Source of the DNA: a virus
Strand: one strand, 5' to 3'
IMG/VR virus record: IMGVR_UViG_3300036770_006893
Location: 124,001 to 188,000 of that record
DNA length: 64,000 bases
Made by a program: the position numbers and the translations under genes
Part shown: positions 6,955-56,019 of the stretch, piece by piece
Layout of the letters: the number at the start of each line of letters is the position of its first letter
Numbering within the stretch: the first letter of the stretch is position 1
Notes under the pieces: generated by a model
The model's input: only the letters and a program-made list of their open reading frames with translations
The model's database searches: none
What the model was told of the DNA's origin: nothing

Positions 6955-6982
6955 TTTGAAATAATCTATTTTATGAGAATAG

Positions 6983-7008: not shown

Positions 7009-7037
7009 CGTATCTCAATTACGCTACGCGATTAGTC

Positions 7038-7424: not shown

Positions 7425-7469
7425 ATCAAAACTCCTTCAAGGTTAAAATTTGTGCGCCAATCGCACCTT

Positions 7470-7497
7470 ATAATACAATAGGGTCGGTAAAAGTCAA
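7470..7497 (-). promoter_or_regulatory. sigma70-like promoter of ssb
   Basis: The -35 box TTGACT (7492-7497) is followed after 16 bases by the -10 box TATTAT (7470-7475). The -35 box overlaps the TGA stop of the upstream polymerase gene. In the leader, 7452-7466 can form a small hairpin (GTGCG/CGCAC) before the strong AAGGAG ribosome site. The spacer length of 16 matches several other promoters in this window. Confidence 0.6.
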
Positions 7498-25399: not shown

Positions 25400-27559
25400 C
25401 TACTCTGGGCTGTTGAACTGTTCTATATTTATGTTTTTGTATTTTTTCATAAATATTTGTTTATTTATAACTTGGTAGGTCTTAGCTCCTAAATTTATAT
25501 CTGTGCCACTAGACGATCCTTCGTCATGTATAGCTAAACACCTTGGCTCGTACATTGTCTTTAATCCTTTGACATGGGCTCTGTATTGCCATTCGCTATC
25601 TTCATAATACATCTTGCTTAAAGAAGTATCGAGAGCTCCTATATTAGCGATAGCGTCTCTTCTCATATATAGCAAACAGCCGGAACAATAACCAACAGAT
25701 CTTCTGATATTACTGTCTGGGTTTTCGTTTGGCGCATATCGAAATAAATTTCTGCCGTTACCGTCGTTATATAATTCTGCACCAGCCTCAGCTATCGTAT
25801 TATTTGGATACAAAGTTTTACCTCCAACTGCCGCCACGGTATTTGCCGAATAAGCAGTAGAGTATAAGTGATTGAGCCAGCAATCAGAAATAATCTCTAT
25901 GTCATCATTTACTAATACAATATCAGAATGTTTATATTTTTTACTGTTTATTATTTTATTATTTGGAATTATGAAGTATTCGTTACTTTTATTTTTGATA
26001 TAATCAATTTTTTCTGGATATTGTTGTTTAAATTTATGTATTATATTGAATATATTAGTATTATTACTATTATCAGTTATTGCTATAGTATAATTAGAAT
26101 ATTTAGTCTTAGATAATATGCTGCTCAGGCATTTTTCCAATTTATCTGTTTGCTTGTAGGCGACTATACTAATTGCTATGTGTTTAGAAAAAAGTGTTGA
26201 TTCTAGTGTGGTTTTTGCAGCCTGATGGTCTACGATTTTTTGTAATTGGCTTCTACCAAGTTTTCCTAGTTTGATTTTGTCTTTGCTATTTAAAGAAAAA
26301 AAGTATTCTAATTGTTGAACGAATTCTTCATCAGAATTTGCTATCAATGCATTTGACCGATTGGTAAAATTAATGCCTTCGTTACCTATGGTGGTCGTTA
26401 AAATAGGGATACCAGACATACCACTATCGCATATTTTACCCTTAATACCGGCGCCCCAATATAGAGGAGCGAGACATAAGCAACTTTTTTTATATAGATC
26501 TTCGATATTATCTATTTTGCCGGTGATAACTATATCCTTATCTTGTCTCGCCTGAGAGATAATTTTATTGCAAATGTTGGGTCCTGCTATATATAATTTA
26601 GGCTTATGTTTTAATTTTTTATATACAGGCGACATCTTGAATGTTCTAAATACTTTTATGGAGTTGAGCGCACCTTCCTTGTTAGGACCGTGAGCATAAT
26701 TGCCAAGAAAAAATATATCATTTCCAAGTTTTGACTTGATGTTTTTTGCATAATGTATGTTACTAAGAATCTTTATGTTTGTGCTATATCCTAACTCTTG
26801 CTCAATATGTTTTTTGTCTTCGTTTGTAATTGCAAAAACCACATCAGCGGATAGATATACGTTTTTTTCTGTGTTTTTTCTAATAGATAGTGCTTGTGTA
26901 CTAATGTCGAGATTTCCGGTGTCGTAGCCTCTCTGCTCTCTAATCCAATGCACATCAACACTATCAACAATAATTTTAGTGCTTGGATAAATTTTTTTAA
27001 CTATATCCATATATTGCGCTGCTATGTCGTACCAACAGAAAATAGCTGCGTCAAAAGTTATATTATTATTATATAAATCTTGTAAATAAATATCCATATA
27101 AATATTATTATCTATATCTGGATAGTAGACTTTTATATTAAGCTTTTGAAGTGATTCTATATATTTTTTAGATATCGGATTATTACAAAAAAAGTAAACA
27201 TTTTGATTTAGATCTTTAGTTAAGATTTTTAATATTTCATATAATCTATTGCCTCCGCTACTTAGATCATAATCTGGTGCCAATGGAGAGAAAACCATTA
27301 TATTATTGGTATTTTTAGACGGCCATTGTTCGCAAGAGTGTGACGGGGTGGGTTTGTTTGCTGTGTAATATTTGAAAACGCGATTCTCTTTGCGTCCAAA
27401 TAGAATATAGTGCTCTATAGCCTTTTGATAATCATCTATATGCGCCAAAGAAAGGTCTGGATTTAAATCAATATATGCTTTATGGTCAAAGTTTTCTGGT
27501 ATCAAATGCATTAGCTTTGATGTGAATCGTCTAATTTCCGGCGTTGATTCCCAAATCAT
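25400..27559 (-). CDS. two-domain glycosyltransferase (GT4-like plus GT2)
   Basis: A 719-residue fusion. Residues about 20-65 carry a short helical motif (YIDLNPDL ... HYILFGRKENR) found at the N-terminus of some polysaccharide enzymes. Residues about 85-430 form a GT-B/GT4-like part, with FFLGNYAHGPNKEGALNS opening the donor domain and LAPLYWGAGIKGKICDSGM as donor-binding loop. Residues about 455-719 are a GT2 domain: ISIVAYKQTDKLEKCLSS, a variant DxD in VLVNDDIEII, and GALDTSLSKMYYEDSEWQYR near the catalytic base. It likely adds two sugars in sequence. Confidence 0.85.
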   Translation of the reverse strand: MIWESTPEIRRFTSKLMHLIPENFDHKAYIDLNPDLSLAHIDDYQKAIEHYILFGRKENRVFKYYTANKPTPSHSCEQWPSKNTNNIMVFSPLAPDYDLSSGGNRLYEILKILTKDLNQNVYFFCNNPISKKYIESLQKLNIKVYYPDIDNNIYMDIYLQDLYNNNITFDAAIFCWYDIAAQYMDIVKKIYPSTKIIVDSVDVHWIREQRGYDTGNLDISTQALSIRKNTEKNVYLSADVVFAITNEDKKHIEQELGYSTNIKILSNIHYAKNIKSKLGNDIFFLGNYAHGPNKEGALNSIKVFRTFKMSPVYKKLKHKPKLYIAGPNICNKIISQARQDKDIVITGKIDNIEDLYKKSCLCLAPLYWGAGIKGKICDSGMSGIPILTTTIGNEGINFTNRSNALIANSDEEFVQQLEYFFSLNSKDKIKLGKLGRSQLQKIVDHQAAKTTLESTLFSKHIAISIVAYKQTDKLEKCLSSILSKTKYSNYTIAITDNSNNTNIFNIIHKFKQQYPEKIDYIKNKSNEYFIIPNNKIINSKKYKHSDIVLVNDDIEIISDCWLNHLYSTAYSANTVAAVGGKTLYPNNTIAEAGAELYNDGNGRNLFRYAPNENPDSNIRRSVGYCSGCLLYMRRDAIANIGALDTSLSKMYYEDSEWQYRAHVKGLKTMYEPRCLAIHDEGSSSGTDINLGAKTYQVINKQIFMKKYKNINIEQFNSPE

Positions 27560-35891: not shown

Positions 35892-36153
35892 TGTCATCCT
35901 CTTTTGGTTTTTCTATCCATACTCTAGTAATATCAGCATAAGGTTTGTCTAATACTATTGATCGTTTTGTTACGTCTTCTCTTTCGCAATTTTCGGGTAT
36001 TTCACTATTGTCATTTCTAACAGTATAAAATCCATAATCAGATAAAATTTCTGCGTTATTTTGATCAAAATTGATCATTAGTACACCATCAGGATTAAAG
36101 AAATTCTTGGGCACCCTGCGTAATAATGATTCGTTTTCTGTATAGTAAAACAT
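35881..36153 (-). CDS. small tail-fibre accessory protein, paralogue of the previous gene
   Basis: A 90-residue protein. SDYGFYTVRNDNSEIPEN and ADITRVWIEKPK align with the equivalent parts of the 166-residue neighbour, so it appears to be a duplicated module without the helical C-terminal part. It overlaps that gene by 11 bases and follows the fibre gene by 10 bases. Confidence 0.55.
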   Translation of the reverse strand: MFYYTENESLLRRVPKNFFNPDGVLMINFDQNNAEILSDYGFYTVRNDNSEIPENCEREDVTKRSIVLDKPYADITRVWIEKPKEDDNVL

Positions 36154-36163
36154 TTATATTTCC

Positions 36164-37936
36164 TTAGTTAGTTTTTTCGCCTATATAGTGGCCTTGAATA
36201 GTACCATTAATACTTCTTAACAAGACTAAGTATTTTCCAGCAACAAAATTTGGTGGGGGATTGTACCAATCATCAACAATACTCCAAATTACATTAATAG
36301 GGTTGGTAAACGTCAATTCTAATAACACATCAACACTCTTAGCACTAGGCCAATTTGATCCTTCTATAAAATTAATGTTAGTAACTGTATTTTGCCAATT
36401 TGCAAAAACTTGAATCTGTCTATCTATAGCATACGATATACCAAAATTTACTGATGGGCCTGGTATTGTACCAATGGATGGAGCATATATCAGAGTAGGC
36501 GCACTTAGTCCATTATTTACAGTTAAACTACCATTTAATGTATTGTCTTCTGATGTTTGTTGATAAAAATTTCGGCCTTGAATCGTTCCAGTATTTAGTA
36601 GAGTACCGTCTGGATTTAAATATACCGTTTTATCTAAAAGATTATCTCCACCACTACTGGTGCGCAAATAAATTCTAGCACTAGGATTTAAAGAAGTTGA
36701 GGATGCCTCATCAACAATCTCCATTCTTAAACCGCCAAGAATAGTCACGTTTTTGTTATAATCTAAACTTTCTCCTCGTACAGCAAATATACCATCACCA
36801 CTATTAGCTATTTCTGGTAAAACTTGTGTGCCTCGTGCTCTTCTAAAAATTAATCTACTTGGTTCGATATCAGCGTTATAGAATTGATTAATTCTAAAAT
36901 TGCCTATGGTTTCATCAGCTATTAGCCTAAGAGTATTATTATCTGTGCTATATGTTAAATACGAGCTAGGTTCCCAATTGTTTGTGTTAGAATTATATAC
37001 TAATAAATGATCGTTTTGTAAACCGGCTAAATCTACATCATGATTATCATCTAAATGTCCATAACTAGTTGGTCTTACAAAAATGCGACCAGTATTTTGA
37101 CTAACATATAATACTATAGCAGCGCTGATGCTATGTTTTGGTTCAACCTTTGTTAATTTACCAGGAACTGTTGGATGAACATATAATATGTCACCTTCAA
37201 CCCAAGCTGGTTCATCGGCCGCATATAAATTTTGATCGCCATTAACTGCTCCGTTGCCTCTGGTATCTAAATTTTCAACATGACCAAAATTAATAGCATA
37301 ACCTTTTTGATTAATGTCAATATCTGTTAATACTAATCCCATAAAGCGTATTTCTCTTATAGTTCCATCAGCAGTGTACAAACTAGCTTCTATGAGAGAG
37401 TTATTATGAACATCACTGACATAAACTGCTTGACCAGCTCTAAGAATGGAACCAGTATTATTGCGAATTCTAAAATAGTTATGTTCGCCAACATGAATTT
37501 TAGTCCCACCTTCTAGACCCAAATCCAATGTGCCTTGTGCTTCATCCCAACCTATTTCAGCAGTTTCTATTGTAGGGTCTGCTGTTATGTTAAAAGATAT
37601 TTTATCAAATTCAGCATTGCCGCTGGTACTAATGGTTAAATTATCATTATCGTCATCATAAACTATATTTATTCCGCTACCGGGTATTAAAAATCCGCTG
37701 GCGCCAACAACATCTTGAACATCTTCTGGCTGCAATATAACGTCTTGATTATTTTCTGATTGTAAATATGGTAAGCTATTCCAAGCAGTAACTCCATCGC
37801 CAATTTTTAATTTACCAGTATCTTTTTCATATCCTGGCTCTCCTAAGCGTAAAACTTCACCACCGGGTTGCGGCTCACTATTGGCCCATTCAGCAGCGGT
37901 ACCTCTTCTAAATTTTATTACATCTTTACGCGTCAT
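36164..37936 (-). CDS. tail fibre with Mtd-like N-terminal domain
   Basis: A 590-residue fibre protein. The N-terminus (VIKFRRGTAAEWANSEPQP ... GKLKIGDGVTAWNSLPYL) is the 'RRGT...W ... KIGDGvT.WnsLPY' module found at the start of many phage fibres, including the major tropism determinant of Bordetella phage. A beta-rich shaft with short glycine and Asn-rich repeats follows. A second part near residues 395-460 shows LRMEIVDEASSTSLNPSARI. It likely trimerises and contacts the host surface. Confidence 0.85.
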   Translation of the reverse strand: MTRKDVIKFRRGTAAEWANSEPQPGGEVLRLGEPGYEKDTGKLKIGDGVTAWNSLPYLQSENNQDVILQPEDVQDVVGASGFLIPGSGINIVYDDDNDNLTISTSGNAEFDKISFNITADPTIETAEIGWDEAQGTLDLGLEGGTKIHVGEHNYFRIRNNTGSILRAGQAVYVSDVHNNSLIEASLYTADGTIREIRFMGLVLTDIDINQKGYAINFGHVENLDTRGNGAVNGDQNLYAADEPAWVEGDILYVHPTVPGKLTKVEPKHSISAAIVLYVSQNTGRIFVRPTSYGHLDDNHDVDLAGLQNDHLLVYNSNTNNWEPSSYLTYSTDNNTLRLIADETIGNFRINQFYNADIEPSRLIFRRARGTQVLPEIANSGDGIFAVRGESLDYNKNVTILGGLRMEIVDEASSTSLNPSARIYLRTSSGGDNLLDKTVYLNPDGTLLNTGTIQGRNFYQQTSEDNTLNGSLTVNNGLSAPTLIYAPSIGTIPGPSVNFGISYAIDRQIQVFANWQNTVTNINFIEGSNWPSAKSVDVLLELTFTNPINVIWSIVDDWYNPPPNFVAGKYLVLLRSINGTIQGHYIGEKTN

Positions 37937-37995
37937 AGTATTCTGTTGCCCTTTTAAATAGATGGCTCATTTTAATATATTCGCTATTTAAGTAA

Positions 37996-38003
37996 TACAC
38001 CAA
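37996..38003 (-). promoter_or_regulatory. TTGGTGTA motif, possible late promoter element (site 2)
   Basis: Lies directly against the stop codon of the 1,878-residue adhesin gene and 59 bases before the fibre gene ATG. Reads TTGGTGTATTAC, the same first ten bases as site 1. Confidence 0.35.
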
Positions 38004-41000
38004 TTAAATATCCCAACCCGCCTGTCTAAGATTAACTAATGCTTGCGCACCAGGAATAGTTCTTGCGATTATCGTACCACGACTACTAGTACGCACTCTA
38101 ATTTTTGTATTAGCAGTATAATTGTACTCGAACGCAGAACTTGCTGGCCTGGGTGTTGTGAAATAAGTAGAGAATAATGATTTATTTTGATCCCATTTGA
38201 TTAACAGATTGTCCAAGTCACTGCCCGGTAAATACAAATCGCTCAGTAAAGCAGGGAGAATCCAATCGTCTGTTCCCAGAATACTAAAGTCTGCCGCATC
38301 CTTAAGACTACTAGCATTCCATCTAGATAATTTTGTTGTGTATCCGGTAAGCCTAAACATATCTCGCATACTTATAACATTAGAAACATTCCAATTATTG
38401 ATATCTGTTGTGAAAGCACCAGCATTATAAAACATGCTATTCATATTTGTAACTTGAGAAGTATCCCAATTGCTTATATTTCCTCTAAAGCTTACAGCCG
38501 ACTCAAACATAGAACTCATGTTTGTAACTTTACCGGTATTCCAAGAATCTAGTGTATCGCCGGTAAATGCCCGAGCGTCTTGAAACATCCTCGACATATT
38601 TGTAACATTGCTGGTATCCCACAGGGATAACGGAATATTAAATCTTACACATCCTCGAAACATGTTATTCATATCATTTATGCTCGATGTGTCCCAGCTC
38701 ATAACATTAGGGTCATTGAAAGTAGTACATAATGGTAGTTGTATGTGTTCGGCCTTTGGAATATAATCTGGAACAGAATTGAGGAGTGGTAAAGAGTCTA
38801 AAGTTATTCTCTTAAGCGAACTTATCCAAGAAGATATTCCCGTAACACCGCCTGCTACACTCGATGTGGGAGTAGAGGTAAAGCTATCAGCAATGACTAC
38901 ATCCGTAGTATTAGTATGATTAATTGGAGTAATTTTAATAGATCCAGTTTTATTCCTTGCAGTAACCACACTAGGTCTTCTGTCGGTAAAGTTAATAACT
39001 AGCCTATGTTTGCCATCAAAGAATACTGTTCCAACTACCCCATCCTGCTGAGTTCCGCCCTCTACTAAGTACCAGCTGGGCTCCGACGCGTCTATAGTAA
39101 TCGTTATAGCCATCGTACTAGAATTAATTAGGGTAGAATAATTATGGCCATAATCTATAATTAAGGGGCTTATTACTGAGTCAGGTGGTATTGGAGAAAC
39201 ACTAACGCTTGGACTAACAGTAGGACTGATGGTTTGTGTTGGTGTTGCTGTTGCGCTAACGCTAACGCTAACGCTTGGAGTGGGCGTCATGCTGTGTGTT
39301 GGCGTTAGTGTTGGAGTCATGGTTTGCGTTGGTGTTGGAGATCTCGATGGCAATGGTGTTGGTGTTACTGTTGCGCTCACGCTATTGGTTGGCGTTACTG
39401 TTCTTGTTACAGTCGGCGATACTGTTATACTTGGACTAACTGTTTGGCTAACCGTAACCGTGGGTGTGGTCGTGGGTGTAGTAGTTGGACTATTAGTTAT
39501 TGTTGGCGTGGGCGTAGGAGTTCTTGTACTAACGGGAGTTGGAGAAGGAGTTGGGGTGCATTGTGCTGCACACTTTAATGCAATGTAGTCTGTGCTTGTG
39601 GCGCCGGTTGATTCTCTAGTTAATCTAATAAAAGCATTAACATTTACATTACCATTCAGGAGGGCTAAAGATGTTAATCTAGCATTATTTGCCACATAAA
39701 CGTGGCCGCCAGCAGGATAAAATGAAACATTGCTAGAATCACTACCAAATCTAAAATAGTACTTTTCTTTAGAAATATTATTAGTACTAGACAAGTCATC
39801 TATATAACTATCTGGTAAATAATTTTTAATATCTACCATAATTGGTATATATTGTTTACATCCATTTCCAGAAACTTCTATTTGACGATTAGAAGGAGCA
39901 ACAAACTCTACATCTGTTACAAATTCCTTGGAATAGCATTTGTTGCATTTTAATAAAGACTCAGACCAAGCAATACCACAATTTGGTTGAGATGCTTTTG
40001 CTATATTGAAACGTAATATATTATAGATTTTACTAAAATCTTTAGTTTTTTCAGAAACTGGTGGTAGATTAAAATTAGTGTTTTTATCATTGACAAATGT
40101 AAAGGTGGATGATATTGTATGAGTATCGCCATTTGCAATGAACACATTATCTTTATCGGATATATGAGCTGGCCAATTACTGTCGGTGGAATCAAAGAAA
40201 TACGAATATGATGTATTTTTAGATAGTCCAGTTACCACAACATCAACCACAGCATGATCACCCTCAAATTGAGACAAATCAATATTATTAGTCATAGATA
40301 ATATTTTAGGGCATTTATTGTACTGTTCTTTAGCGTCATGGCATGAGTCGCACTGTACAGTAAAGATATGATCAACTTTTTCTGGACATAAAGTTTGGAT
40401 ATTTTTAGCATTTCCCGAAGAATCAGATAAAACAGGCTGTGGAGCATCATGGGATTGGGTGGGATATGTCCAATAGGCGGCTAGTTCTGAATCATAAAAT
40501 GCCGCCTTGTACCATTCGTTGTGAGATGGAATAAAATATTTTGCATCAAAATTTCTGTATATTTGGTTATCAAATATTATATTGCGTAAATCATATGCTC
40601 CGACTAGTAGTTTATCATTGATAGTAGCAGGATCGTATACTCTAATATTAACGTCAAAAGACCCGAAGTTATCTTCAGTACATCTGACATCGTTTATGCC
40701 TAGGTATAGTCGTCCAGAAATTTCTGGGTTATACCTACCGCCAGTACCTATTTCAAAAATAGTTCCATTATCTCCTATTTTTCCAACCAAAGCAGCCACT
40801 GGTATACTTACTGCTTGAGGAACATCAAAGCCACAAGTTGCGGAAGCGAGTTCTCCTAAATTAACACCCTCTGGTCCTGTCCATTGGTTTATATCAGTAA
40901 CATCTGTAAACTTAATTGTCCCAGACGCTTGTATCTCAACAATAGAGTCGGGATGTAAGTCTATATTGGAATCAACCCAATCTTGAGCTATAGAATTATT

Positions 41001-43640
41001 TGGTACATTTTCATATATATCCCATCCTTTATTATTGTGTAACCAATTGCAGTATTTTGCGGCTCTAATCCAGGAGATAAAATTAGCAGGTTTATTGCTC
41101 ATTAACGGTTTAATTACATATCTTTCTCCAAAGTTTTTGCATGAATCTAAGGCTATGCCTCCTGTATGATGGTTCGCCATTCTGTAATCATACAAATCAA
41201 GATTATTTTCACCCAGAGGATCAACAGTATTTAAATAGTCGCAGTATTCTTGATTAGTTAATAAATTTTGTTGTATATAATAACTATAGTATACGCTACC
41301 AAGATTACAACTTTCTGGGCTTGGGTCGTTAATATTTCCTTCGTTTTCTATTATAATAAAATTATTATAATTGTCTGGATTTTCATATGAAGCAATTCTT
41401 AGACCAAATCCTCCGTCGTCAAAAACAGAAAAAATATCATGGTTTTTAAATATGTGCTTACTAAGAGCAAGACTATCGCTATCTAGCCAGCTACCACCAC
41501 GTAAAATTTTATGATTAGGTTTATTGTCTGGGCTAGTATCTGTCCATTCGTATAACTGACCGGCCATATCATAGATACCATATTTTGATGGCCTTCCATT
41601 AAGGCCGATTGTTGTTAATCCAGCATTACCACCCCATACGGCCCTTTCTGCGTAATTACATGAATTATTATCTAATTCTTTGTTGCTATTAAGAGACAGC
41701 TTAATAACAGAATAAATATTTTTATCATTACTGATAAGCTTTGATAGATTAGCTTGTTGAATAAACACATCATCAAAACCAAATTCTATAACCCCAGCGA
41801 TTTCTGATGTTTGGTCATGTCTATTTGTGATTATTCCAGATAAGGGATAGATTGAACACGGGGCAGAAGCGTCCACAGATTCAAAAGAGTAAGAATAATT
41901 ATCTAAAAGCCCGGATAGTGATATATTGAACGGGATCATTAATCCTGTAGATATAATTAAATTATCAGAATTAATACCAGAAATATTGATATTTGGACAT
42001 ATGTTGGTTTCACAAAGGATTTTTGGATCTGCCTCTAAGCATCTGGGTATATGTATATCTTTATCTGGGTATTCACGAGTTATAAAATAATAGGATTCGC
42101 CAGGTTCTAGTTCAGATAAGGAGCTGTATGGATTAGGTACAAATGCATTACCAGATGGTAATACCCAAAAAATTGCAGTATTATCATCTATACTTTTTGT
42201 ACTATATATAGTAGAAATATTGTCTATAAAATTGTGCCATAGTTGATATTGTTTTTCTCCAGGCTGAAAAACCTTATCTCCACATTTAGGCTCAAGTAAA
42301 GATAGTTTATCACTACCAAGATATGTTTTAATATTAAACATCGATTCTAGAATCATGTTATTAATATTATCTACTTGTGGCGCCGTAAATATTGATGGGG
42401 TGGGTGTGTTACTTGGGGTTGTGGTTATTGTTGGTGTTACTGTGGGAGTTACTGATCTTGTTGGCGTTGGAGTTTTTGTGGGTGTTTTTGTTGGACTTAT
42501 TGTATTTGTGGGAGTACTTGTTGAGGTTGGGGTTGTAGTAACAGTAGTAGTGACTGTTGGGGTTGGGGTTAGTGTTGGTGTGATGCTGCTAGTTGGGGTG
42601 TGGGTTGGAGTAGTTGTAGGTGTGGTTGTTATGGTCGGAGTTGTTGTTGGAGTAAGACTAACAGACAAAGATTGTGTAGGAGATAAGGTTGGAGTTACTG
42701 TATTTGTTGGAGTAGTAGTTGGAGTTAGGCTTGGTGTCAATGTAGGGGTGGGACTAGGAAAAATATTATTTACTGGTCCATCACCTAATATGTTCGATAT
42801 AACGCATGATGGGTCTGTATCGTATTGCGTAGCATATAACCAATATCCACTATTTAATCCGTCAGCTTTATAGTATGCTGATTTATACCATTCATTTTCT
42901 GAAGATATAGCATATTTAGCATTTGGGTTTCTAGTTATAGACAATATATTAGTGCCATTAGTTAAATCATATGCGCCCGATTCTGTATCTCCGAAATCAT
43001 TATGAAGCCAATTCGCCATCCTTGCGGCACAAAACCAGTCAACATAATTTACTGGCTTATTTGACATATTATTTTTAACTATATATTTTGATCCAACAGG
43101 ATTGCTAGGAACATAAATAATACCTCCTCTAAAATTATTTGTCATATCTATAGAATATGTATTATACAGATTTTGGCCGCTAGGATCTGTGTTGTTCAAA
43201 AATTCGACATATTCTTGATTAGTGACAGGATGTATCATGATGTGATAATCATAAGATACTGATCCTTTTGAGTTTGTGTCGGCTTCATTACCAGAGTCGT
43301 TTATCCCTACAAAAGAACCAAAAATAGAACCAATTGATAAATGTACTAATCTAAAACCTATATTAAATGATTTCGTACTAGCGGAACTATTGATAGAAAA
43401 ATTAGAAGATAAAACCGAAGTGGTTGTTGAGTTCCAGGCTCCTCCTCTAAGAATTTTATTATAATTGCCTTGATTTTCTATGGTATTTTCATTCCATTCC
43501 CAAACATTTCCGGATTGATCTCTTGTCCCGTATGCACTAGTGCCACCATTTGTACCTACTGAGGTAATATTACCGTTTTGTAGATTCCATCTAGCACAAT
43601 TATTAAAATTGGCAGTATTACTACCTTTTGGAAAAGCCAT
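38004..43640 (-). CDS. giant multidomain adhesin with two permuted SUMF1/FGE-like domains
   Basis: An 1,878-residue protein. Residues about 1-100 hold the usual C-terminal half of a SUMF1/FGE-like domain (YGTRDQSGNVWEWNE, ILRGGAWN, NIGFRLV); residues about 105-285 hold its usual N-terminal half (VSYDYHIMIHPVTNQEYVEF, NWLHNDFGDTE, NEWYKSAYYKADG). A Thr/Pro-rich linker follows (about 290-413). Residues about 660-1070 repeat the same reversed order (RGGSWLD and FGLRIAS first, LLTNQEYCDYLN and NEWYKAAFY later). A second Thr/Pro linker is at about 1357-1483 and BspA repeats at about 1640-1770. Catalytic FGE cysteines are not evident. Probably a tail-fibre-like receptor-binding protein. Confidence 0.75.
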   Translation of the reverse strand: MAFPKGSNTANFNNCARWNLQNGNITSVGTNGGTSAYGTRDQSGNVWEWNENTIENQGNYNKILRGGAWNSTTTSVLSSNFSINSSASTKSFNIGFRLVHLSIGSIFGSFVGINDSGNEADTNSKGSVSYDYHIMIHPVTNQEYVEFLNNTDPSGQNLYNTYSIDMTNNFRGGIIYVPSNPVGSKYIVKNNMSNKPVNYVDWFCAARMANWLHNDFGDTESGAYDLTNGTNILSITRNPNAKYAISSENEWYKSAYYKADGLNSGYWLYATQYDTDPSCVISNILGDGPVNNIFPSPTPTLTPSLTPTTTPTNTVTPTLSPTQSLSVSLTPTTTPTITTTPTTTPTHTPTSSITPTLTPTPTVTTTVTTTPTSTSTPTNTISPTKTPTKTPTPTRSVTPTVTPTITTTPSNTPTPSIFTAPQVDNINNMILESMFNIKTYLGSDKLSLLEPKCGDKVFQPGEKQYQLWHNFIDNISTIYSTKSIDDNTAIFWVLPSGNAFVPNPYSSLSELEPGESYYFITREYPDKDIHIPRCLEADPKILCETNICPNINISGINSDNLIISTGLMIPFNISLSGLLDNYSYSFESVDASAPCSIYPLSGIITNRHDQTSEIAGVIEFGFDDVFIQQANLSKLISNDKNIYSVIKLSLNSNKELDNNSCNYAERAVWGGNAGLTTIGLNGRPSKYGIYDMAGQLYEWTDTSPDNKPNHKILRGGSWLDSDSLALSKHIFKNHDIFSVFDDGGFGLRIASYENPDNYNNFIIIENEGNINDPSPESCNLGSVYYSYYIQQNLLTNQEYCDYLNTVDPLGENNLDLYDYRMANHHTGGIALDSCKNFGERYVIKPLMSNKPANFISWIRAAKYCNWLHNNKGWDIYENVPNNSIAQDWVDSNIDLHPDSIVEIQASGTIKFTDVTDINQWTGPEGVNLGELASATCGFDVPQAVSIPVAALVGKIGDNGTIFEIGTGGRYNPEISGRLYLGINDVRCTEDNFGSFDVNIRVYDPATINDKLLVGAYDLRNIIFDNQIYRNFDAKYFIPSHNEWYKAAFYDSELAAYWTYPTQSHDAPQPVLSDSSGNAKNIQTLCPEKVDHIFTVQCDSCHDAKEQYNKCPKILSMTNNIDLSQFEGDHAVVDVVVTGLSKNTSYSYFFDSTDSNWPAHISDKDNVFIANGDTHTISSTFTFVNDKNTNFNLPPVSEKTKDFSKIYNILRFNIAKASQPNCGIAWSESLLKCNKCYSKEFVTDVEFVAPSNRQIEVSGNGCKQYIPIMVDIKNYLPDSYIDDLSSTNNISKEKYYFRFGSDSSNVSFYPAGGHVYVANNARLTSLALLNGNVNVNAFIRLTRESTGATSTDYIALKCAAQCTPTPSPTPVSTRTPTPTPTITNSPTTTPTTTPTVTVSQTVSPSITVSPTVTRTVTPTNSVSATVTPTPLPSRSPTPTQTMTPTLTPTHSMTPTPSVSVSVSATATPTQTISPTVSPSVSVSPIPPDSVISPLIIDYGHNYSTLINSSTMAITITIDASEPSWYLVEGGTQQDGVVGTVFFDGKHRLVINFTDRRPSVVTARNKTGSIKITPINHTNTTDVVIADSFTSTPTSSVAGGVTGISSWISSLKRITLDSLPLLNSVPDYIPKAEHIQLPLCTTFNDPNVMSWDTSSINDMNNMFRGCVRFNIPLSLWDTSNVTNMSRMFQDARAFTGDTLDSWNTGKVTNMSSMFESAVSFRGNISNWDTSQVTNMNSMFYNAGAFTTDINNWNVSNVISMRDMFRLTGYTTKLSRWNASSLKDAADFSILGTDDWILPALLSDLYLPGSDLDNLLIKWDQNKSLFSTYFTTPRPASSAFEYNYTANTKIRVRTSSRGTIIARTIPGAQALVNLRQAGWDI
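39185..39575. repeat. low-complexity Thr/Pro-coding repeat (second linker of giant adhesin)
   Basis: A G/T-rich stretch on the plus strand (C/A-rich in the coding sense) made of degenerate 6- and 12-base units encoding runs of Thr, Pro and Ser. It lies inside the giant adhesin and is a likely site of slippage or recombination with the other two similar tracts. Confidence 0.75.
42395..42775. repeat. low-complexity Thr/Pro-coding repeat (first linker of giant adhesin)
   Basis: Another degenerate repeat tract of the same kind, encoding alternating Thr-Pro with Ser/Val, inside the same gene. It separates the first SUMF1-like domain from the rest of the protein. Confidence 0.75.
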
Positions 43641-43677
43641 ATTTGGTCCTATTAAATTTTTATGTGATATATTGATT

Positions 43678-43685
43678 TACACCAA
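43678..43685 (-). promoter_or_regulatory. TTGGTGTA motif, possible late promoter element (site 3)
   Basis: Reads TTGGTGTAAATC, 37 bases before the ATG of the giant adhesin and just after the stop of the gene upstream. Fourth copy is before the gene at 48917. Confidence 0.35.
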
Positions 43686-43707
43686 TGTTTTAGGTCGTAA
43701 TTAATTT

Positions 43708-44124
43708 TTATGAGCATATTGGTATCAATAAAGCCTTATCATCAGGAGCGCATTGCTCAAAAATAACTTCATCAGTAGAAGGGTCTATAATTTGTATTTT
43801 GGCTATGCCTCTATGTACAGAGCCAGGGCTTGGGATGCCAACGAGTTCTATTTTATATTTAGCATCTTGCGAAGCTGTGCCAGCGGGTAATATTATTCTA
43901 GATTCTCTATATCCACCATCTGATGCATTATTTAAATCAATTTCTCCAACTTCGTTGGAATTAATATAAACATCAAATCTTGCTCTATTGCACCTATGAC
44001 CACCGGAACATACCGATGGATCATAGCTTACTTTTAATACAAAAGAACTGATATCTTCGTATGCAACGCACGGTGGAGGAGGTTCTGGATCTGGGAAGTC
44101 GATACAAGAATAGTCATCGGTCAT
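43708..44124 (-). CDS. hypothetical tail-region protein with Pro-rich start
   Basis: A 138-residue protein. It begins with an acidic, Pro-rich segment (CIDFPDPEPPPPCVAYED) and then looks like a single beta-sandwich domain (FVLKVSYDPSVCSGGHRC, ARFDVYINSNEVGEIDLN, KYKIELVGIPSP). Six cysteines are present. No family recognised. It lies between two structural genes and has a ribosome site close to its ATG. Confidence 0.55.
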   Translation of the reverse strand: MTDDYSCIDFPDPEPPPPCVAYEDISSFVLKVSYDPSVCSGGHRCNRARFDVYINSNEVGEIDLNNASDGGYRESRIILPAGTASQDAKYKIELVGIPSPGSVHRGIAKIQIIDPSTDEVIFEQCAPDDKALLIPICS

Positions 44125-44136
44125 AATAGAATTCCT

Positions 44137-45336
44137 TTAAGAACATATAGGCTGCTTATTAAATGTTGATACTATCCATCTTATCCATCTTTCAGAATTG
44201 CACAGTATGCGTCTTGTTGTCAATCCATTATTTTTAGCTATGGTGAAATATTCTGATACTCCATCTTTTACCGAAGACCAGCCGAGAGAAGGGCTATCAT
44301 CGACAAATACATTAACCTGAGAAGAGGGATTGATGTCACCAAAAGCTTCTTTTATTTTTTCGTTTATCCAATTCCCAGTCAATGGCTCATTATTTATTAT
44401 ACAAGCGGGGACATTTCTAGACGATGGTATTATTCTAGAATCTGGTATTGGCATCTGGTATCCGTCTGGCACATTAATATATGGATATAATGGTAAAATA
44501 GTACATTGTTGTTTGATAAAAGATCTTACATGAAATATTAAAATTTTATTTACGTCTATAGCTTTAAGGCTGTCCAATAATTTAAAATCATCCATGTCCT
44601 GATACCAGTATATATTAGGGGTACCATATGGGGATTGATTAACATATCCAAAAATATTTGGTGCTGATGGATATAAAGACTCGTCAGCAAAAATAATACA
44701 ATAATCATCAAAGCCTATGCCTGCTTCTGGAGGCTGTGGGGGAGGGGGCAGAACAGGAGGATCTAATGCCTTACACACAGTATTTGAGTACTGATTTGGC
44801 GATCCAGGACCACAACAATCTGTTCCGCCAACCCTAAAACATATTCTAGAATAATTTTTATCATTAAAGACATTACCCGGAATAATAACTTGTATATATG
44901 TTTTATCGCAAGTTGGTGTTGGTATGGGGGAACATCTCAAAACTAAAACATCATAGGTTATCAAAGCTCCAACTCTTGTTGTTTTACCACAAATATATGC
45001 TGTAGTATCTAAACTAGCACCCTCATACTCAGCAACTATAGATACCTGCTCGCCGATGATCCAGTCGTCTATAGGAGAACCGGGATATAACAAGGAATTC
45101 GCACCGCGTATAACCTGAAATAAACAATCATCACCTATGCATTTTTTATATGGATCATTAAGTTGATCGCTATTATAAGTAACCGCACATGCTACCCAAG
45201 AAGACCCAGAGGACAGACCCTGTATTCTGAAGGCGCTTTCAGTAAAAACACAATTACATTCTATTGGGACAAATTTACTAAAGCATGCATTGTCAGAGTA
45301 ATCACAATATCTCAGCGATTCTTCAGTAGGTATCAT
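44137..45336 (-). CDS. Cys-rich structural protein with vWA-like end
   Basis: A 399-residue protein. The N-terminal 190 residues are Cys-rich and beta-like (YCDYSDNACFSKFVPIECNC, CGPGSPNQYSNTVC), a Pro-rich hinge follows (PPVLPPPPQPPEAG), and the C-terminal 190 residues resemble a von Willebrand-A/Rossmann domain: DVNKILIFHVRSF, then VNVFVDDSPSLGWSSVKDG near residue 350. Such 'VFVDdSpS' proteins occur among phage tail genes. Extracellular/virion location is an inference from the cysteines and context. Confidence 0.55.
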   Translation of the reverse strand: MIPTEESLRYCDYSDNACFSKFVPIECNCVFTESAFRIQGLSSGSSWVACAVTYNSDQLNDPYKKCIGDDCLFQVIRGANSLLYPGSPIDDWIIGEQVSIVAEYEGASLDTTAYICGKTTRVGALITYDVLVLRCSPIPTPTCDKTYIQVIIPGNVFNDKNYSRICFRVGGTDCCGPGSPNQYSNTVCKALDPPVLPPPPQPPEAGIGFDDYCIIFADESLYPSAPNIFGYVNQSPYGTPNIYWYQDMDDFKLLDSLKAIDVNKILIFHVRSFIKQQCTILPLYPYINVPDGYQMPIPDSRIIPSSRNVPACIINNEPLTGNWINEKIKEAFGDINPSSQVNVFVDDSPSLGWSSVKDGVSEYFTIAKNNGLTTRRILCNSERWIRWIVSTFNKQPICS

Positions 45337-45354
45337 AATTATTACTCACAAAAT

Positions 45355-48015
45355 TTACGGAATTAAATTAGTACAAATCGATGGTAGAGTTATATACTGA
45401 TATGGGCTGCAATCAACCCAAGAGGCATCTGCACGTTGCCAATCTGCAAAACTTACTTCGTGCTTAATATTAACGTAGTATAGGCCACAATGTAATTCAT
45501 CTATGCAATTAATATGATTAATAGCTAAATATAATCGACCAGATGCTGCTGCTTTAAGAGACAGGTCGGATCCTATAAAGAAAGGCGATCCGTTTTCACC
45601 AATTTTGCCTATTAGTGATAGGGAAGGTAAGTGTTGAGCTTCTTGTAGTTTGCATGAAGTTAAATTGTTTGAGATACCATTAGGACCGGATTGTAGAGGA
45701 ACGGGTGTTGTAACGGTGGATGGGGACAGAACAGACGATGGGTAGTACACGACTCCAGTAGCCCCAAACTCTAATTCTTCTTCATCTACTATGTCTATAA
45801 AAGTATCTTTCCACGAAGGGGTTCTGGCTCCAACATATATATCAATAGATTCTCTTTCTATAAGTCTGTATTCAACGTTGCAACAACAGCTTGGGTTTCT
45901 AAGCATATCTAGTATAAAAATACCTCCGCCATCAGCTAATTTGTCGGTTAGTGTAGCATCACAAATTTCTATACTTGGACATTCACAAATAGCGTCTCTT
46001 GGGAAGGGCCCATTTTTAAGACTATCTATTAATGGACATACGGGTTGTTTGTTTGACTGTGTGGCATATCGATAATATCTCGAATCAATGGGGTTATAGT
46101 ACGCAGCCTTATACCACTCATTGTCTGTTGGTAAGAAATATTTTGCGTCGTTGTTTCGCTTAATTAAATGTATATTCCTTGGCGATACATCAGAAGGTAT
46201 ACTATAGGCGCCATCTTCTGTGTCTCCGAAATTATTGTGTAACCAATTACAGTATCTTATGGCGGTTAGCCAGGTAACAAAATTAACTGGTTTATGGTCC
46301 ATATTTTGTTTTAGATAGTATTCATATCTATCTTTTAACGGATTGAATCTTCTGATAATTCCTCCGTTATTATCATCTTCCATTTCTTGGTGATATAGTC
46401 GTAAGTGATCGGAAGATTGATCGAATGCTACAGAATTTAGAAATGCTATAAACTCATAGTTAGTTACTTCATACTTATGGATTTTGTAGCTATATTTTAC
46501 TCTTCCAAAACCAAGCGAACTAGATAGATTGCAAGGCTCGTTTACATCGGCGAAACACTTGATATCTAATGGGTTATTATACGATGCTATTCTAAAACCA
46601 AATTGTGAAGACACCTGATCAAAATTATTGGAATACCGAGACGATAAGCTAAACGCATCGATTTCCATTAAGCTACTAGCATAGGAACCGCCCCTAAGTA
46701 CTTTATGTAAGGTATTATCTCCTGTTGATTCTGTCCACTCCCAAACATTTCCATTTTGATCAAAAGTACCATACCCACTCTGTCTACCATTAGTACCTAC
46801 TGTTGTAACTATAAAAGCATAGTCTGTGGGGTCGCAGTCTATACATCCGGCAAAATTAATAGAAGATCTAACATCAGGAGATGGACTTGGAGTAGGAGAA
46901 ACTATTGGACAGTCCGCCGTTGCGCAACCGCAGTTATCGTTTTTTACCACTACAATTTTAGAATCTTCTAGATGTGTTTCTAGATCAAGTACTCTAATTG
47001 ATACAGTGGCGCTATCAGATGATTCTAGTCTAGTTAATAAAAGAGTAATGTCTTGATTGCCATCGTATTTGGCAACAAATTCTATTTCACTAGGCACGAT
47101 TTTTGTAATACTATCATAATCATTGGAAAATATGTTGACTTTGTATCTATGAGAAGATATTAATGGTCCTATAGATGCCTGTATAATACAATCATTTAAT
47201 GCTAAATTCGGAGTAATAGAAGGAGTAGGAGATGGGGCAGGGCAAGAGGTTTCGCTAGGGGTCGGTGTTGGCGTGGCTGTTCTAGTGGGTGTTGGTGTGG
47301 GCGTTCTTGTTGGTGTCTTAGTAGGTGTGGCGGTTTGTGTTGGGGTAACGGTCGGAGTACTAGTTGATGTGCGTGTGGGTGTGTTGCTAAGAGTTTGGGT
47401 TGGTGTGATAGTTATGCTAGATGTTGGGGTCAGGCTAGCAGTAAGGCTTACGGTGATAGACGGAGTAGGGGTATGAGTCAAAGAAACCGAAGGGGTCGGA
47501 GTTTGTGTTGGAGTGGTGGAGGGTGTCGGGTTTGGGGTAGGCGTTACAGAAGCTGTTACGCTAGGTGTCGGATTGGGGGTTGGTGTGCATGTTGGGGTTG
47601 GGGTGGCAGATACGCTTATACTTATACTAGGAGTCACCGAGACACTCGGGGTAACAGTAGGGGTGTTAGTTGGCGTTATCGTTGGTGTGGCGGTTGGTGA
47701 GGGTGGTGGAGGAATATCCTCAGAAGTTACTTGACCTATCCAGTTACCTGTGCGGGCACTAACTACTAACCACCTACTACCATTCCATGCCCAATGACCA
47801 TTATCGTTTGGAGAACTATAATTAGTTCTGGAATCATTTATGGGGGACCTAGGATCTATAAAAGTTATTCGACGCCCTCTTTCGTACTCTATACTATGAA
47901 GCTTATTTATTGTAAGCGTATCAAAACGGATAGATCCAGGTGCGTTAGGCTCATAGACTGGCCTATTAAAATATGATGTGACCGACCTAAAGCCTACTCG
48001 TCTATAAATTGCCAT
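45355..48015 (-). CDS. long tail-fibre-like protein with permuted SUMF1/FGE-like domain
   Basis: An 886-residue protein. Residues 1-100 form a fibre-like head (GRRITFIDPRSPINDSRTNY, WAWNGSRWLVVS). Residues about 102-262 are a Thr/Pro/Ser linker. A beta domain at about 265-375 precedes a SUMF1-like domain with the halves swapped: YGTFDQNGNVWEWTES and KVLRGGSYASS with FGFRIASYNN first (about 405-485), then YKIHKYEVTNYEFIAFL, RYCNWLHNNFGDTED and NEWYKAAYYNP (about 500-655). A Cys-containing beta part ends the protein. It is the third such domain in the window and a likely receptor-binding protein. Confidence 0.75.
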   Translation of the reverse strand: MAIYRRVGFRSVTSYFNRPVYEPNAPGSIRFDTLTINKLHSIEYERGRRITFIDPRSPINDSRTNYSSPNDNGHWAWNGSRWLVVSARTGNWIGQVTSEDIPPPPSPTATPTITPTNTPTVTPSVSVTPSISISVSATPTPTCTPTPNPTPSVTASVTPTPNPTPSTTPTQTPTPSVSLTHTPTPSITVSLTASLTPTSSITITPTQTLSNTPTRTSTSTPTVTPTQTATPTKTPTRTPTPTPTRTATPTPTPSETSCPAPSPTPSITPNLALNDCIIQASIGPLISSHRYKVNIFSNDYDSITKIVPSEIEFVAKYDGNQDITLLLTRLESSDSATVSIRVLDLETHLEDSKIVVVKNDNCGCATADCPIVSPTPSPSPDVRSSINFAGCIDCDPTDYAFIVTTVGTNGRQSGYGTFDQNGNVWEWTESTGDNTLHKVLRGGSYASSLMEIDAFSLSSRYSNNFDQVSSQFGFRIASYNNPLDIKCFADVNEPCNLSSSLGFGRVKYSYKIHKYEVTNYEFIAFLNSVAFDQSSDHLRLYHQEMEDDNNGGIIRRFNPLKDRYEYYLKQNMDHKPVNFVTWLTAIRYCNWLHNNFGDTEDGAYSIPSDVSPRNIHLIKRNNDAKYFLPTDNEWYKAAYYNPIDSRYYRYATQSNKQPVCPLIDSLKNGPFPRDAICECPSIEICDATLTDKLADGGGIFILDMLRNPSCCCNVEYRLIERESIDIYVGARTPSWKDTFIDIVDEEELEFGATGVVYYPSSVLSPSTVTTPVPLQSGPNGISNNLTSCKLQEAQHLPSLSLIGKIGENGSPFFIGSDLSLKAAASGRLYLAINHINCIDELHCGLYYVNIKHEVSFADWQRADASWVDCSPYQYITLPSICTNLIP
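47225..47715. repeat. low-complexity Thr/Pro-coding repeat in fibre-like protein
   Basis: About 490 bases of degenerate short repeats, encoding Thr-Pro-Ser runs. This is the longest of the three such tracts in the window. The three tracts share enough sequence to allow recombination between the genes at 38004 and 45355. Confidence 0.75.
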
Positions 48016-48016
48016 T

Positions 48017-48322
48017 TTATCTTTCTATTCTACTTTCTAGTGCCTCTAGCGTATGGCCTAAAGTAGCTATTTGTAATTTAAGCTCATTCATAACTTCTGT
48101 ATTTCTTTGTAGAGCAGCAGCAAATGCTGCTTGGGTTTCTTTATTAACGGCTAGTCTTTCCATTATAAACTGACGATCTTGAACATATGGTGACTTTGTT
48201 TCTATCATATCGCATACTTCGCTTTTAGTAGCCATATTACGACCTATAGTAAACCAAAATCCTAACATAGTTAATATAATACCTATACTTGTTGTTGCAA
48301 CGTATTGCCATACTTCTGTCAT
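48017..48322 (-). CDS. small membrane protein with coiled coil
   Basis: A 101-residue protein with an N-terminal membrane segment (YVATTSIGIILTMLGFWFTIG) and a C-terminal coiled coil (LQRNTEVMNELKLQIATLGH). The shape resembles XhlA-like or spanin-like small phage proteins. GGAGG lies 10 bases before the ATG, just after a terminator hairpin. Its stop is 1 base from the fibre gene start. Confidence 0.6.
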   Translation of the reverse strand: MTEVWQYVATTSIGIILTMLGFWFTIGRNMATKSEVCDMIETKSPYVQDRQFIMERLAVNKETQAAFAAALQRNTEVMNELKLQIATLGHTLEALESRIER

Positions 48323-48341
48323 TTTATTTAACCTCCATCAA

Positions 48342-48376
48342 TAAAAAAGCCAATGATACGAATAGCATCACTGGCT
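48342..48376 (-). terminator. rho-independent terminator after the 48414 gene
   Basis: A 10-base-pair stem (48367-48376 with 48348-48357, one G-T wobble) with a 9-base loop, followed on the minus strand by TTTTTT. It stands between the gene at 48414-48917 and the small membrane protein gene, so the tail-fibre block may be mainly transcribed from its own signals. Confidence 0.8.
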
Positions 48377-48413
48377 TAAGGTAATAAGTATTTAACAACC
48401 TATTAAATATATA

Positions 48414-48917
48414 TCAATTGGTTTTGCTAGAATAGCTTGTAACAACTGGATAGTTTTTATTTCCAAGAGTATATGTTATAACACCAGGGGATTGTCTATT
48501 CGTTCTTGCGGCATTGTCTTGGCCAAAAGAATCCACAGAAGTTTGTGGCGCTACTGTCCATTCATGATCAAACTCATTCCAATAGCCAGCTCTAAAAGCT
48601 GTGGCGTATTTTGTTGTGGTAATGCTTTCAATTTTTAATGGCGAAGAAATTAATCCTGGCATACCAGCACCGCTTAGTAAGTAGTCGTTAGTTAGTCCAC
48701 CAGCTAAAAACACCGTTATTCTTTTGGCTATTGGTTCGTTGTTGTCGTGTGGGAAATTACCTAATATGGTATTTTTTGTGACATCTGATGTTTCGACAAC
48801 TCTTGATCCAATGCTTTCAGGCACAAAACCATCTGGAACTGAAGCTAATAGTCTTGTTGCCGTAATGCGATGGGTTGCGCCGCCATTATTATTAATTTTG
48901 TTAACTGACAGAATTGC
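48414..48917 (-). CDS. putative virion structural protein
   Basis: A 167-residue beta-rich protein (AILSVNKINNNGGATHRITAT onward, read in parts; then ITVFLAGGLTNDYLL and VITYTLGNKNYPVV). The open frame is longer, but I chose the ATG at 48915-48917 because GGAG lies 6 bases before it. It has its own promoter-like region and a strong terminator, so it may be made in quantity, as head-decoration or tail-tube proteins are. No family recognised. Confidence 0.6.
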   Translation of the reverse strand, partial: AILSVNKINNNGGATHRITATRLLASVPDGFVPESIGSRVVETSDVTKNTILGNFPHDNNEPIAKRITVFLAGGLTNDYLLSGAGMPGLISSPLKIESITTTKYATAFRAGYWNEFDHEWTVAPQTSVDSFGQDNAARTNRQSPGVITYTLGNKNYPVVTSYSSKTN

Positions 48918-49019: not shown

Positions 49020-49667
49020 TTATATAAGGGTTAATGCATTTAAATTATTTATTCTAAAACCGTAGATATTTGAATGCAATATATTATTTACATGTTGTTG
49101 GCGGTAAATATTGCCATTACATATGGTTTTTATATTGGTTTTTGTTTGTAAAAATTTGCAAGCAATAATATTGTCATTTATATCGTCCAGCATCATTCCA
49201 GATGATGGTAAAATAGTATCAATATTTAGGTCTTTTAAAATTTGGCAAACTTTAGCTAGTACATCATGTCCATATCTTCTATATTCTAAGACATATCTGA
49301 GCTGAACATTATTTTTTGAACATATATCAAGATTTGTTTTTATATCTTCTCTTAATTTATCATATTTACGATTAGTTATTGCCTTAGTGGGTATCATAAG
49401 GTCTATAAAAGAAATTTTATTGGATTTAGCTAGATGCTCAACCGTATAATTTCTTGTTTTTTGGTCAGAGAGACCGTAGGGAAAATCTATAGGGCAGCCG
49501 AATTTAATGTCGCTATCTACAGAAAATAGTTCAGATCTAATATAGTTTATAGAGTATGGTAGTAAGAATATATTTTGAAGACCATGCTTAATAGCTGTTT
49601 CGACATTAAATGTCGTTTCTGTCTCATTTATATCATAGTCATAGCAACAATATTCTATATGTGTCAT
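49020..49667 (-). CDS. DeoC-like aldolase-fold protein lacking the Schiff-base lysine
   Basis: A 215-residue protein with the layout of class I aldolases of the DERA/DeoC type: IKFGCPIDFPYGLSDQKTRN (compare V.FP.G), KISFIDLMIPTKAI, VQLRYVLEYRRYG (compare KvIlEt) and IDTILPSSGMMLDD. In DERA the last motif is IKTSTG, with a Schiff-base lysine; here the position is a Leu. A later lysine (IKTICNGNIY) remains. It may therefore be a binding protein or have another activity. It overlaps the protease gene by ATGA. Confidence 0.55.
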   Translation of the reverse strand: MTHIEYCCYDYDINETETTFNVETAIKHGLQNIFLLPYSINYIRSELFSVDSDIKFGCPIDFPYGLSDQKTRNYTVEHLAKSNKISFIDLMIPTKAITNRKYDKLREDIKTNLDICSKNNVQLRYVLEYRRYGHDVLAKVCQILKDLNIDTILPSSGMMLDDINDNIIACKFLQTKTNIKTICNGNIYRQQHVNNILHSNIYGFRINNLNALTLI

Positions 49668-50359
49668 ATTTTTTTACAGTAAGATTTGATGTAGTCTATA
49701 TTTGGAAATTTTTTAGTACCAAGTACCCCATCAGCAAATCCGTAATTAACAGCTTCTTCTGCTGTTAGTATCCAATCTCTTTTTGTTGCCAATTGTGTAA
49801 CGATATGTTTTTTTGCCATCATCTTTTTCCAATTTTTTTCTTTGCAAATCCTACTATTCATACACCTTTCGGTAAAGATGTCGATCATCTTATCGCTCTC
49901 TTTTTCGCTCCACTGAACCATGCTAAGTGCCGCTTTGTGCTCGTTGTCAACACTTATAGAACCATAATGGATTAAGAAGTTGGTGTTTGGAGTAAGTATC
50001 CTCAGGTCTGCTGCTTGTAGTAAAACACTACTACTTGATTCGACTTTTGCGTACGCTAGGATAGCTACCCTTGCTTTTGAATATTTTATTGCGTCAAAAA
50101 TACCCAAACAATCTTGCCAATCTCCTCCAGGCAAGTGCATATGAACTAGTATCGGTTCTAGAGATAATAAATTAAGGTATCGTAAATTTTTTTCAAATAT
50201 AACCGCGCTCTTGTAGTTTACTCCACCCTCCTCGTCACCGCCGTCTATAGAAGAGTGAAGGTAAATTTCTCTGTTTGGTATGTCTATATTATAAGAGTGA
50301 ATATATCCTATATCATATTCTATGTCGGAATATTTTTTATTTTTATTCATCATCATCAT
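49664..50359 (-). CDS. clpP: ClpP-like serine protease (possible prohead protease)
   Basis: A 231-residue protein of the ClpP/crotonase fold. The Gly-rich HMHLPGGDWQDCLGIFDAI segment (about residues 73-91) forms the oxyanion region, SSSSVLLQAADLRILTPN (about 111-128) has the catalytic Ser aligned to the first Ser, NFLIHYGS (about 129-136) the His, and the later AEEAVNYGFADGVLG (about 202-216) is the ClpP C-terminal signature. Phages use ClpP-fold enzymes to cut scaffold and capsid proteins. The capsid genes are not in the window, so that role is inferred. Confidence 0.75.
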   Translation of the reverse strand: MMMMNKNKKYSDIEYDIGYIHSYNIDIPNREIYLHSSIDGGDEEGGVNYKSAVIFEKNLRYLNLLSLEPILVHMHLPGGDWQDCLGIFDAIKYSKARVAILAYAKVESSSSVLLQAADLRILTPNTNFLIHYGSISVDNEHKAALSMVQWSEKESDKMIDIFTERCMNSRICKEKNWKKMMAKKHIVTQLATKRDWILTAEEAVNYGFADGVLGTKKFPNIDYIKSYCKKI

Positions 50360-54945: not shown

Positions 54946-56019
54946 TTAAAGACCAATACACCTTTGTATAGTTTTAGCGGTATTATCCCATGAGTATTTT
55001 TTAGCCGTATTGATACCATTTATATTCGTTTTTATACCGTTTTGATATACATGTCTCATATATCCTATTGCTTGATCTATTTGTTTTTGGCTTATTTTAG
55101 CCCAATGTCCTTGGCCTTTAAACGCTTTTCCATCGAATGCTGGTTCTGTAGTATCTATGTCGATAAGATACGAATTTTGGCTATTGCAGAATTCTGTATG
55201 GGCTGAGAAATTGGTTGCTATTACTGGCTTATTCATTGCCATGCACTCTAGTAGTTCAAGATTCCAGCCTTCTGCTCTGGATGGAAATATACCGCAATCT
55301 GCCTGGGCTATTAATTCGGCTATTTGAAAATGCGTATCTACACCATTAAATAACTTAATGTTGTTGTGACTATAGATATTTTTCCATTTTTCTAATTCTT
55401 CTTTAGATGAGTAAGAGTTTGTGTTTTCAGACGCCAAGATCCATAGTTCTACATCTTCATTATCAGGAAATGCATCCCGAAAAATATTTAATAGTATATC
55501 ATGCCCTTTTCTAATTTCCCACTTACCAATATTAAGAAAAACAAACTTATTCTTGTATTGATATTTCTGATTAAGTTCTGCATTAAAAATATTTAGATCA
55601 ACACCCAAAGGGCAAACAAAAGTCTCCGTGTCAATATTATTCTTTTCAATTATATTTTTTGCCCATTGACTAGTAACAAATAATGCATCTGGAACGGTCA
55701 TGTGTTTTTTTTCAAGATCGTTAAAAGTATCAAGCTCAAAAAAAGGAAAGGCAAAATATTTTCCTCTACCTATTTTTTGTATAAGATCAAACTGATGCCA
55801 AATTTTAACGAAAGGGGCGTCTATATCTAAGTTATTGACGGAATTAACTACAAGCTCAGAGAAGAAATCATATTCCTTTTGATCTTCTACATAAGAGCTA
55901 CCTATAGGAAAAAGACTAATATTTTTAGAAAATGTATTATATATGCTTTTAAGTATATTTTTTGATACTATACCATATCCAGTGCTATTTATAGGACAAG
56001 AGACGTTTATATTGTTCAT
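54946..56019 (-). CDS. GT4-family glycosyltransferase
   Basis: A 357-residue retaining glycosyltransferase. The N-terminal part begins NINVSCPINSTGYGIVSKNI (Gly-rich acceptor loop). The donor domain opens at KFVFLNIGKWEIRKGHDILL and has the EX7E region at FPSRAEGWNLELLECMAMNK (about residues 247-266), with Glu-Gly-x-x-Leu preceding. The C-terminus (YSWDNTAKTIQRCI) is a typical GT4 end. It follows the GMP reductase gene after a 120-base gap. Confidence 0.85.
   Translation of the reverse strand: MNNINVSCPINSTGYGIVSKNILKSIYNTFSKNISLFPIGSSYVEDQKEYDFFSELVVNSVNNLDIDAPFVKIWHQFDLIQKIGRGKYFAFPFFELDTFNDLEKKHMTVPDALFVTSQWAKNIIEKNNIDTETFVCPLGVDLNIFNAELNQKYQYKNKFVFLNIGKWEIRKGHDILLNIFRDAFPDNEDVELWILASENTNSYSSKEELEKWKNIYSHNNIKLFNGVDTHFQIAELIAQADCGIFPSRAEGWNLELLECMAMNKPVIATNFSAHTEFCNSQNSYLIDIDTTEPAFDGKAFKGQGHWAKISQKQIDQAIGYMRHVYQNGIKTNINGINTAKKYSWDNTAKTIQRCIGL

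Follow-up and report, generated by a model that had tools for sequence, protein, structure and literature searches.

Two genes of a viral DNA stretch of 64,000 nucleotides (the window; positions 124,001 to 188,000 of the 224,357-base IMG/VR record IMGVR_UViG_3300036770_006893) encode long proteins which together carry three domains of the FGE-sulfatase family PF03781 (SUMF1/FGE type) with the two halves of the domain in swapped order. The genes reside at 38004-43640 (- strand, 1878 aa, copies 1 and 2) and 45355-48015 (- strand, 886 aa, copy 3). The domains are read as circularly permuted FGE/SUMF1-type units of C-type lectin fold, probably derived from one permutation and acting as non-enzymatic binding modules of adhesins; a probability of about 0.78 is given to this reading as a whole.

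The window proteins match PF03781 with scores of 82.9 and 67.7 bits (curated cut-off 23.3). Positions 156-254 of the Pfam profile, corresponding to the C-terminal half (C-half), align to residues 16-99 of the 1878-aa protein, in which further stretches are matched too, as are two stretches of the 886-aa protein. A profile built from 25 canonical bacterial SUMF1/FGE-type domains, in which the N-half precedes the C-half, was run on the window proteins as a yardstick of order. In copy 1, residues 5-98 correspond to canonical positions 183-273 (E 6.5e-25), and residues 110-288 to positions 1-180 (E 2e-53). The leading C-half (residues 7-100 by PF03781 and the canonical profile, 43341-43622; all features of this region are on the - strand) features the motifs GNVWEW, RGGAW and GFRL, the N-half behind it (residues 108-274, 42819-43319) the motifs TNQEY, NWLHN, NEWYKSAYY and YATQ. 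In copy 2, residues 657-750 cover positions 184-274 (E 1.1e-15; C-half set at residues 658-750, 41391-41669), and the N-half is interrupted by an insert of ~125 aa. The first piece of this N-half (residues 767-887, 40980-41342) matches positions 2-106 over residues 762-872 (E 4.6e-26), the second (residues 1013-1065, 40446-40604, with NEWYKAAFY and YPTQ) positions 113-182 over residues 1014-1080 (E 2.6e-19). In copy 3, residues 402-477 and 490-659 correspond to positions 202-274 (E 3.6e-18) and 3-170 (E 1.3e-56), the C-half being set at residues 383-478 (46582-46869) and the N-half at residues 486-655 (46051-46560). The order is C then N in every copy, canonical in none, and reversed window proteins gave zero matches to the same profile. 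The halves are thus essentially complete, swapped, and joined by a short stretch, as the preliminary description of this DNA had stated for all three copies. The cut site falls at canonical position ~181, directly past the 'YATQSD..P' segment. Upstream N-halves, through which a canonical order could have gone undetected, were not found: in the 38004-43640 gene only 12 residues of open frame precede the ATG, too few for an N-half before copy 1, and the two genes between 38004-43640 and 45355-48015 have no PF03781 match.

AlphaFold2 was run on the unit of the 886-aa protein which includes both halves of copy 3 (285 aa, 33 aligned viral sequences). In the predicted structure (predicted local distance difference test, pLDDT, 87.5; predicted TM-score, pTM, 0.88) this is one compact closed unit, both halves being confidently placed. 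Among solved chains, pFGE, CarF, FGE and TvpA are matched by the sequence profile. The pFGE match (1y4j) is non-collinear, query residues 133-213 aligning to chain residues 35-135, and query residues 37-103 to chain residues 195-267; the match to 5aoh likewise comes in non-collinear pieces. In hhalign comparisons with the canonical profile the N-half alone was aligned (E 1.4e-75, 39% identity). A Foldseek search of viral models gave no usable match.

Domains with swapped halves mark many viral contigs. Scanned with the window domain, IMG/VR yielded 35 loci, most covering nearly the whole query in swapped order. Profiles of the two half-domains, searched separately as had been suggested, confirmed C then N, also in proteins with a single copy (336, 353 and 388 aa); single-copy proteins with exactly one C-N unit each are found at L015, L032 and L038. 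In 25 virus records PF03781 occurs as one C-N unit in 29 proteins; other proteins hold several units in a string, five at most. A profile query of viral contigs found 291 relatives, and in the best 79 of these 291 loci C-N units were seen in 95 of 96 open reading frames (ORFs), whereas the exception (L164), a cut stretch, has a canonical domain behind an N-half. Viral contigs queried with the canonical domain yielded 63 C-N ORFs and 30 canonical ones. The latter encode mostly proteins of ~300-430 aa, and many reside on short, possibly bacterial contigs. Five tandem canonical SUMF1-type genes of ~320 aa were noticed on L242, a 6-kb contig classed as viral which may be bacterial DNA. The junction between C- and N-half is near constant, measuring 6-11 residues past the profile ends in most units. 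Order of the halves, wide sharing among viruses and the confident prediction of a closed fold agree on the permutation first proposed from the window alone; the count of three copies given there holds for the window, but understates the spread of the domain, of which four copies reside in this genome and more on dozens of contigs.

The bacterial sample comprised the best 80 of 570 relatives, from Planctomycetota, Verrucomicrobiota, Myxococcota, Synechococcus lacustris and others. In these 80 loci the order is NC or tandem NCNC throughout and C-N order was found in none, as the preliminary description had it for bacteria. In nine bacterial tandem NCNC proteins the junction between the first C-half and the second N-half measures just 3-15 residues. 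Cyanobacteria were considered as a source of the permuted domains and rejected: strong matches came from 2 of 146 genomes, and the one inspected, in S. lacustris, is a canonical tandem. Within the sample examined, the permuted form is best read as restricted to viruses.

The phylogeny of the domain was analyzed in a quick, unrooted tree of 139 domains, in which the halves were aligned separately and then concatenated. The set included 41 permuted viral domains (39 cut at ~181, hereafter type I, and 2 of a second type, II), 97 bacterial domains and one canonical viral domain. One branch, starred in the tree (SH-aLRT 99), splits the 41 permuted viral domains from all 98 canonical ones, and one ancient permutation is therefore likely, as judged from these sequence comparisons. 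In this tree two domains of contig L034 pair with window copies, L034_vir_2 with copy 1 and L034_vir_717 with copy 2; hence the duplication predates this phage. The scheme of one permutation followed by duplication, advanced in the preliminary description, is favoured by the tree, but the event is much older than this phage. The founding permutation would most likely be a single event in an ancestral large-phage adhesin, a tandem duplication that then lost its outer halves being the probable mechanism, and further duplication would have spread the domain afterwards. The old N- and C-termini would have been closed by a short loop, and the new termini would have opened in the loop connecting the halves, past YATQSD..P and ahead of NSANFNN. 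Since C1-to-N2 junctions are short in the bacterial tandems, loss of the outer halves would directly yield the viral form, and tandem NCNC proteins of this kind are possible intermediates. Candidate relics of the duplication, in the form of apparently overlapping N- and C-pieces, were inspected in L177, L158, L170, L208 and L036, and dismissed as mostly low-complexity or weak alignments.

Type II domains reside on two contigs (L035:5989-6930 and L039:4768-5682). From its start at YWLPSYDEWYKAAFY (in L035) the unit spans, in this order, the N-to-C linker of canonical domains, the C-half and the C-to-N junction of permuted ones, its end lying past 'GAYPLLGATSG'. The cut falls at canonical position ~125-130, ahead of the AKYWIP-NEWYKAAYY segment, and both earlier junctions are closed. 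The AlphaFold2 model of the L039 unit reaches a pLDDT of 91.2 and a pTM of 0.92. Foldseek ranks TvpA first for this model (probability 1.00), as expected because the longer part keeps canonical order, followed by CarF, FGE, EgtB and pFGE, and later OvsA; no TM-score against TvpA and FGE chains exceeds 0.32, a level to be expected if a sequential aligner is unable to track the permutation. Given its placement among the permuted domains in the concatenated tree, type II seems to have arisen by re-cutting an already permuted ring. No INPHARED record matches either the type I or the type II domain, and the INPHARED records listed for the whole 1878-aa protein match solely through its C-terminal DUF285 part.

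A canonical domain nested within the N-half of a permuted domain was observed in L033 (frame 1-8811, residues ~709-1276), and is related to bacterial domains in the tree. A PF03781 search of the whole virus record revealed, outside the window, a fourth swapped domain at 97186-97995 (+), hosted by a protein of 1875 aa with fn3 domains, encoded directly after a tape-measure-like protein. The cut of the fourth copy (L008:6976-12603, residues ~700-1017) may lie elsewhere, at canonical 154/156 (~155), a weak indication. This third cut site was not retained: shuffles of NSGVYNKFATIDEPFASIPNPLGVGIGTS equal the real score in 32 of 2000 trials, a suggestive figure. More tentatively, and with the odds leaning somewhat against it, the fold may be viewed as a ring in large-phage adhesins, shaped by the founding permutation, at least one re-permutation (type II), and insertions and nesting, with a virus-specific re-orientation of the variable binding face relative to the fibre. 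According to the ring view, the fourth copy of this genome would possibly be a third permutation, and other lectin domains would have been inserted and nested at several loops.

Several points weigh against a single true permutation. In Foldseek searches of the PDB the window model reaches FGE relatives by the C-half alone (67 columns, E 0.064), as expected when a sequential aligner meets a permuted fold; the viral sampling began with permuted queries, yet the canonical query too returned mostly permuted ORFs; relics of the duplication were searched for and none found; trees from single halves need 2-4 changes rather than one. The strings of C-N units in several proteins, in which an inner N-C could be read as a canonical domain with a long insert, would also fit halves pairing across neighbouring units or chains, so that the fold is canonical but split. 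Such pairing is very unlikely, as single-copy proteins have exactly one C-N unit, the C-to-N linker is short and constant as opposed to an N-to-next-C spacing varying from 73 to over 800 aa, and AlphaFold2 folds a lone unit confidently. An artefact of assembly or frame, in whose support no point was found, has a negligible probability and is refuted by continuous, stop-free frames and by the same junction on many independent contigs. Two distinct cut sites, along with the changes needed in the half-domain trees, could point to several independent permutations in phage lineages; these are unlikely in view of the single starred branch between permuted and canonical domains in the concatenated tree, and of type II, which sits among the permuted domains.

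The domains are best read as non-catalytic ligand-binding modules of adhesins. The 1878-aa protein carries Pro/Thr-rich linkers behind copy 1 (42393-42758) and at 39186-39557, and ends in DUF285, a domain of 26-residue surface repeats (38286-38729 by the extent of a PHROG match; PF03382, E 8.8e-43). The insert in the N-half of copy 2 (40605-40979) resembles the galactose lectin PA-IL (LecA); PF07828 matches with E 2.6e-4 and 21.4 bits, slightly below the cut-off of 22.5, and the phmmer match to LecA is weak as well. In the 886-aa protein a Pro/Thr-rich linker spans 47209-47712, and a stretch similar by eye to this insert (GKIGENGSPFFIG..SGRLYLAIN) spans 45457-45618, with no Pfam match. A neighbouring gene (36164-37936) encodes the N-terminal domain of the major tropism determinant (Mtd_N; PF18454, E 3.3e-11), with PHROG tail-fibre matches. 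Because of these partner domains and neighbours, including the tape measure adjoining the fourth copy, the proteins are taken as tail or surface adhesins, in which the domain would be an exposed ligand-binding module held by Pro/Thr-rich linkers, presumably on the virion.

The cysteine pair of the FGE active site, located in the RGG-GFR region, is absent from all four copies of this genome. Two cysteines occur in the segment in 1 of 41 viral units, and two or more in 3 of 97 canonical bacterial relatives. As canonical relatives also lack the pair, its loss did not accompany the permutation, and the missing cysteines, rightly noted in the preliminary description, are a weak argument for binding. 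Homology to FGE, EgtB and CarF would fit domains that keep catalysis, of the formylglycine- or sulfoxide-synthase kind, in place of binding; given the missing pair and the adhesin context, this is highly improbable. Column entropy peaks between RGG and GFR in viral and bacterial domains alike, as measured across paralogues and relatives, not within one population. By analogy with the variable proteins of diversity-generating retroelements (DGRs), this variable segment is likely the contact face, and the target would be a carbohydrate or other host receptor. The receptor-binding role suggested earlier is made plausible by the context and by this segment. Involvement of a DGR itself was rejected, as no reverse transcriptase (PF00078) was found in 25 virus records, many being fragments, and no repeat of the template/variable (TR/VR) kind in window positions 36000-48500.

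Other features of the window were noted. A DNA polymerase (PHROG 405) is split over two ORFs (7494-9104 and 9965-11836, -), separated by a 229-aa ORF (9111-9800) as candidate intervening element. Glycosyltransferase-like genes at 5293-6954, 54946-56019 and 25400-27559 (-), and at 60985-62631 (+), one weakly matching glucosyl-HMC glucosyltransferase, perhaps serve DNA or surface modification. A gene close to the adhesin genes (49664-50359, -) is similar by eye to ClpP/signal-peptide peptidases.

The superfamily and the fold are already known, and the permuted form is what appears new; the literature searched, which is a part of all literature, gave no description of an FGE/SUMF1 domain in this form. 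If the reading holds, a virus-restricted permuted branch joins a main fold for massively variable ligand binding, and canonical, type I, type II and nested domains make a natural permutant series for probing the tolerance of new termini. FGE-like (FGS) domains were reported absent from 224 jumbo phages (PMC7824862); permutation could explain domains missed, or taken as half-domains, in such phages, and both halves are worth seeking in either order in annotation pipelines. The FGS domains of that study belong to the same superfamily, and an adhesion role has been proposed for them, but no permuted form is described there. Canonical PF03781 domains, found stand-alone or in tandem in Planctomycetota, Verrucomicrobiota and Synechococcus lacustris, match the viral domains along the full length of both halves, and FGE cysteines are missing in both groups. 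In contrast to them, viral domains have swapped halves and termini at the N/C boundary loop, and are set within long Pro/Thr-linked phage proteins. Sequence and, probably, fold relate the viral domains to human FGE (1y1e) and its paralogue (1y4j), from which they differ in being permuted and, by their residues, non-catalytic. The DGR variable proteins (TvpA 2y3c, TaqVP, Mtd) probably share the same FGE-type subtype of the C-type lectin fold, as judged from the models, TvpA being the top structural match of type II. The ligand-binding variable region of DGR proteins corresponds in position to the RGG-GFR variable segment (PMC6328139), but lies at the very C-terminus, whereas in the permuted viral domains the segment resides in the first half.
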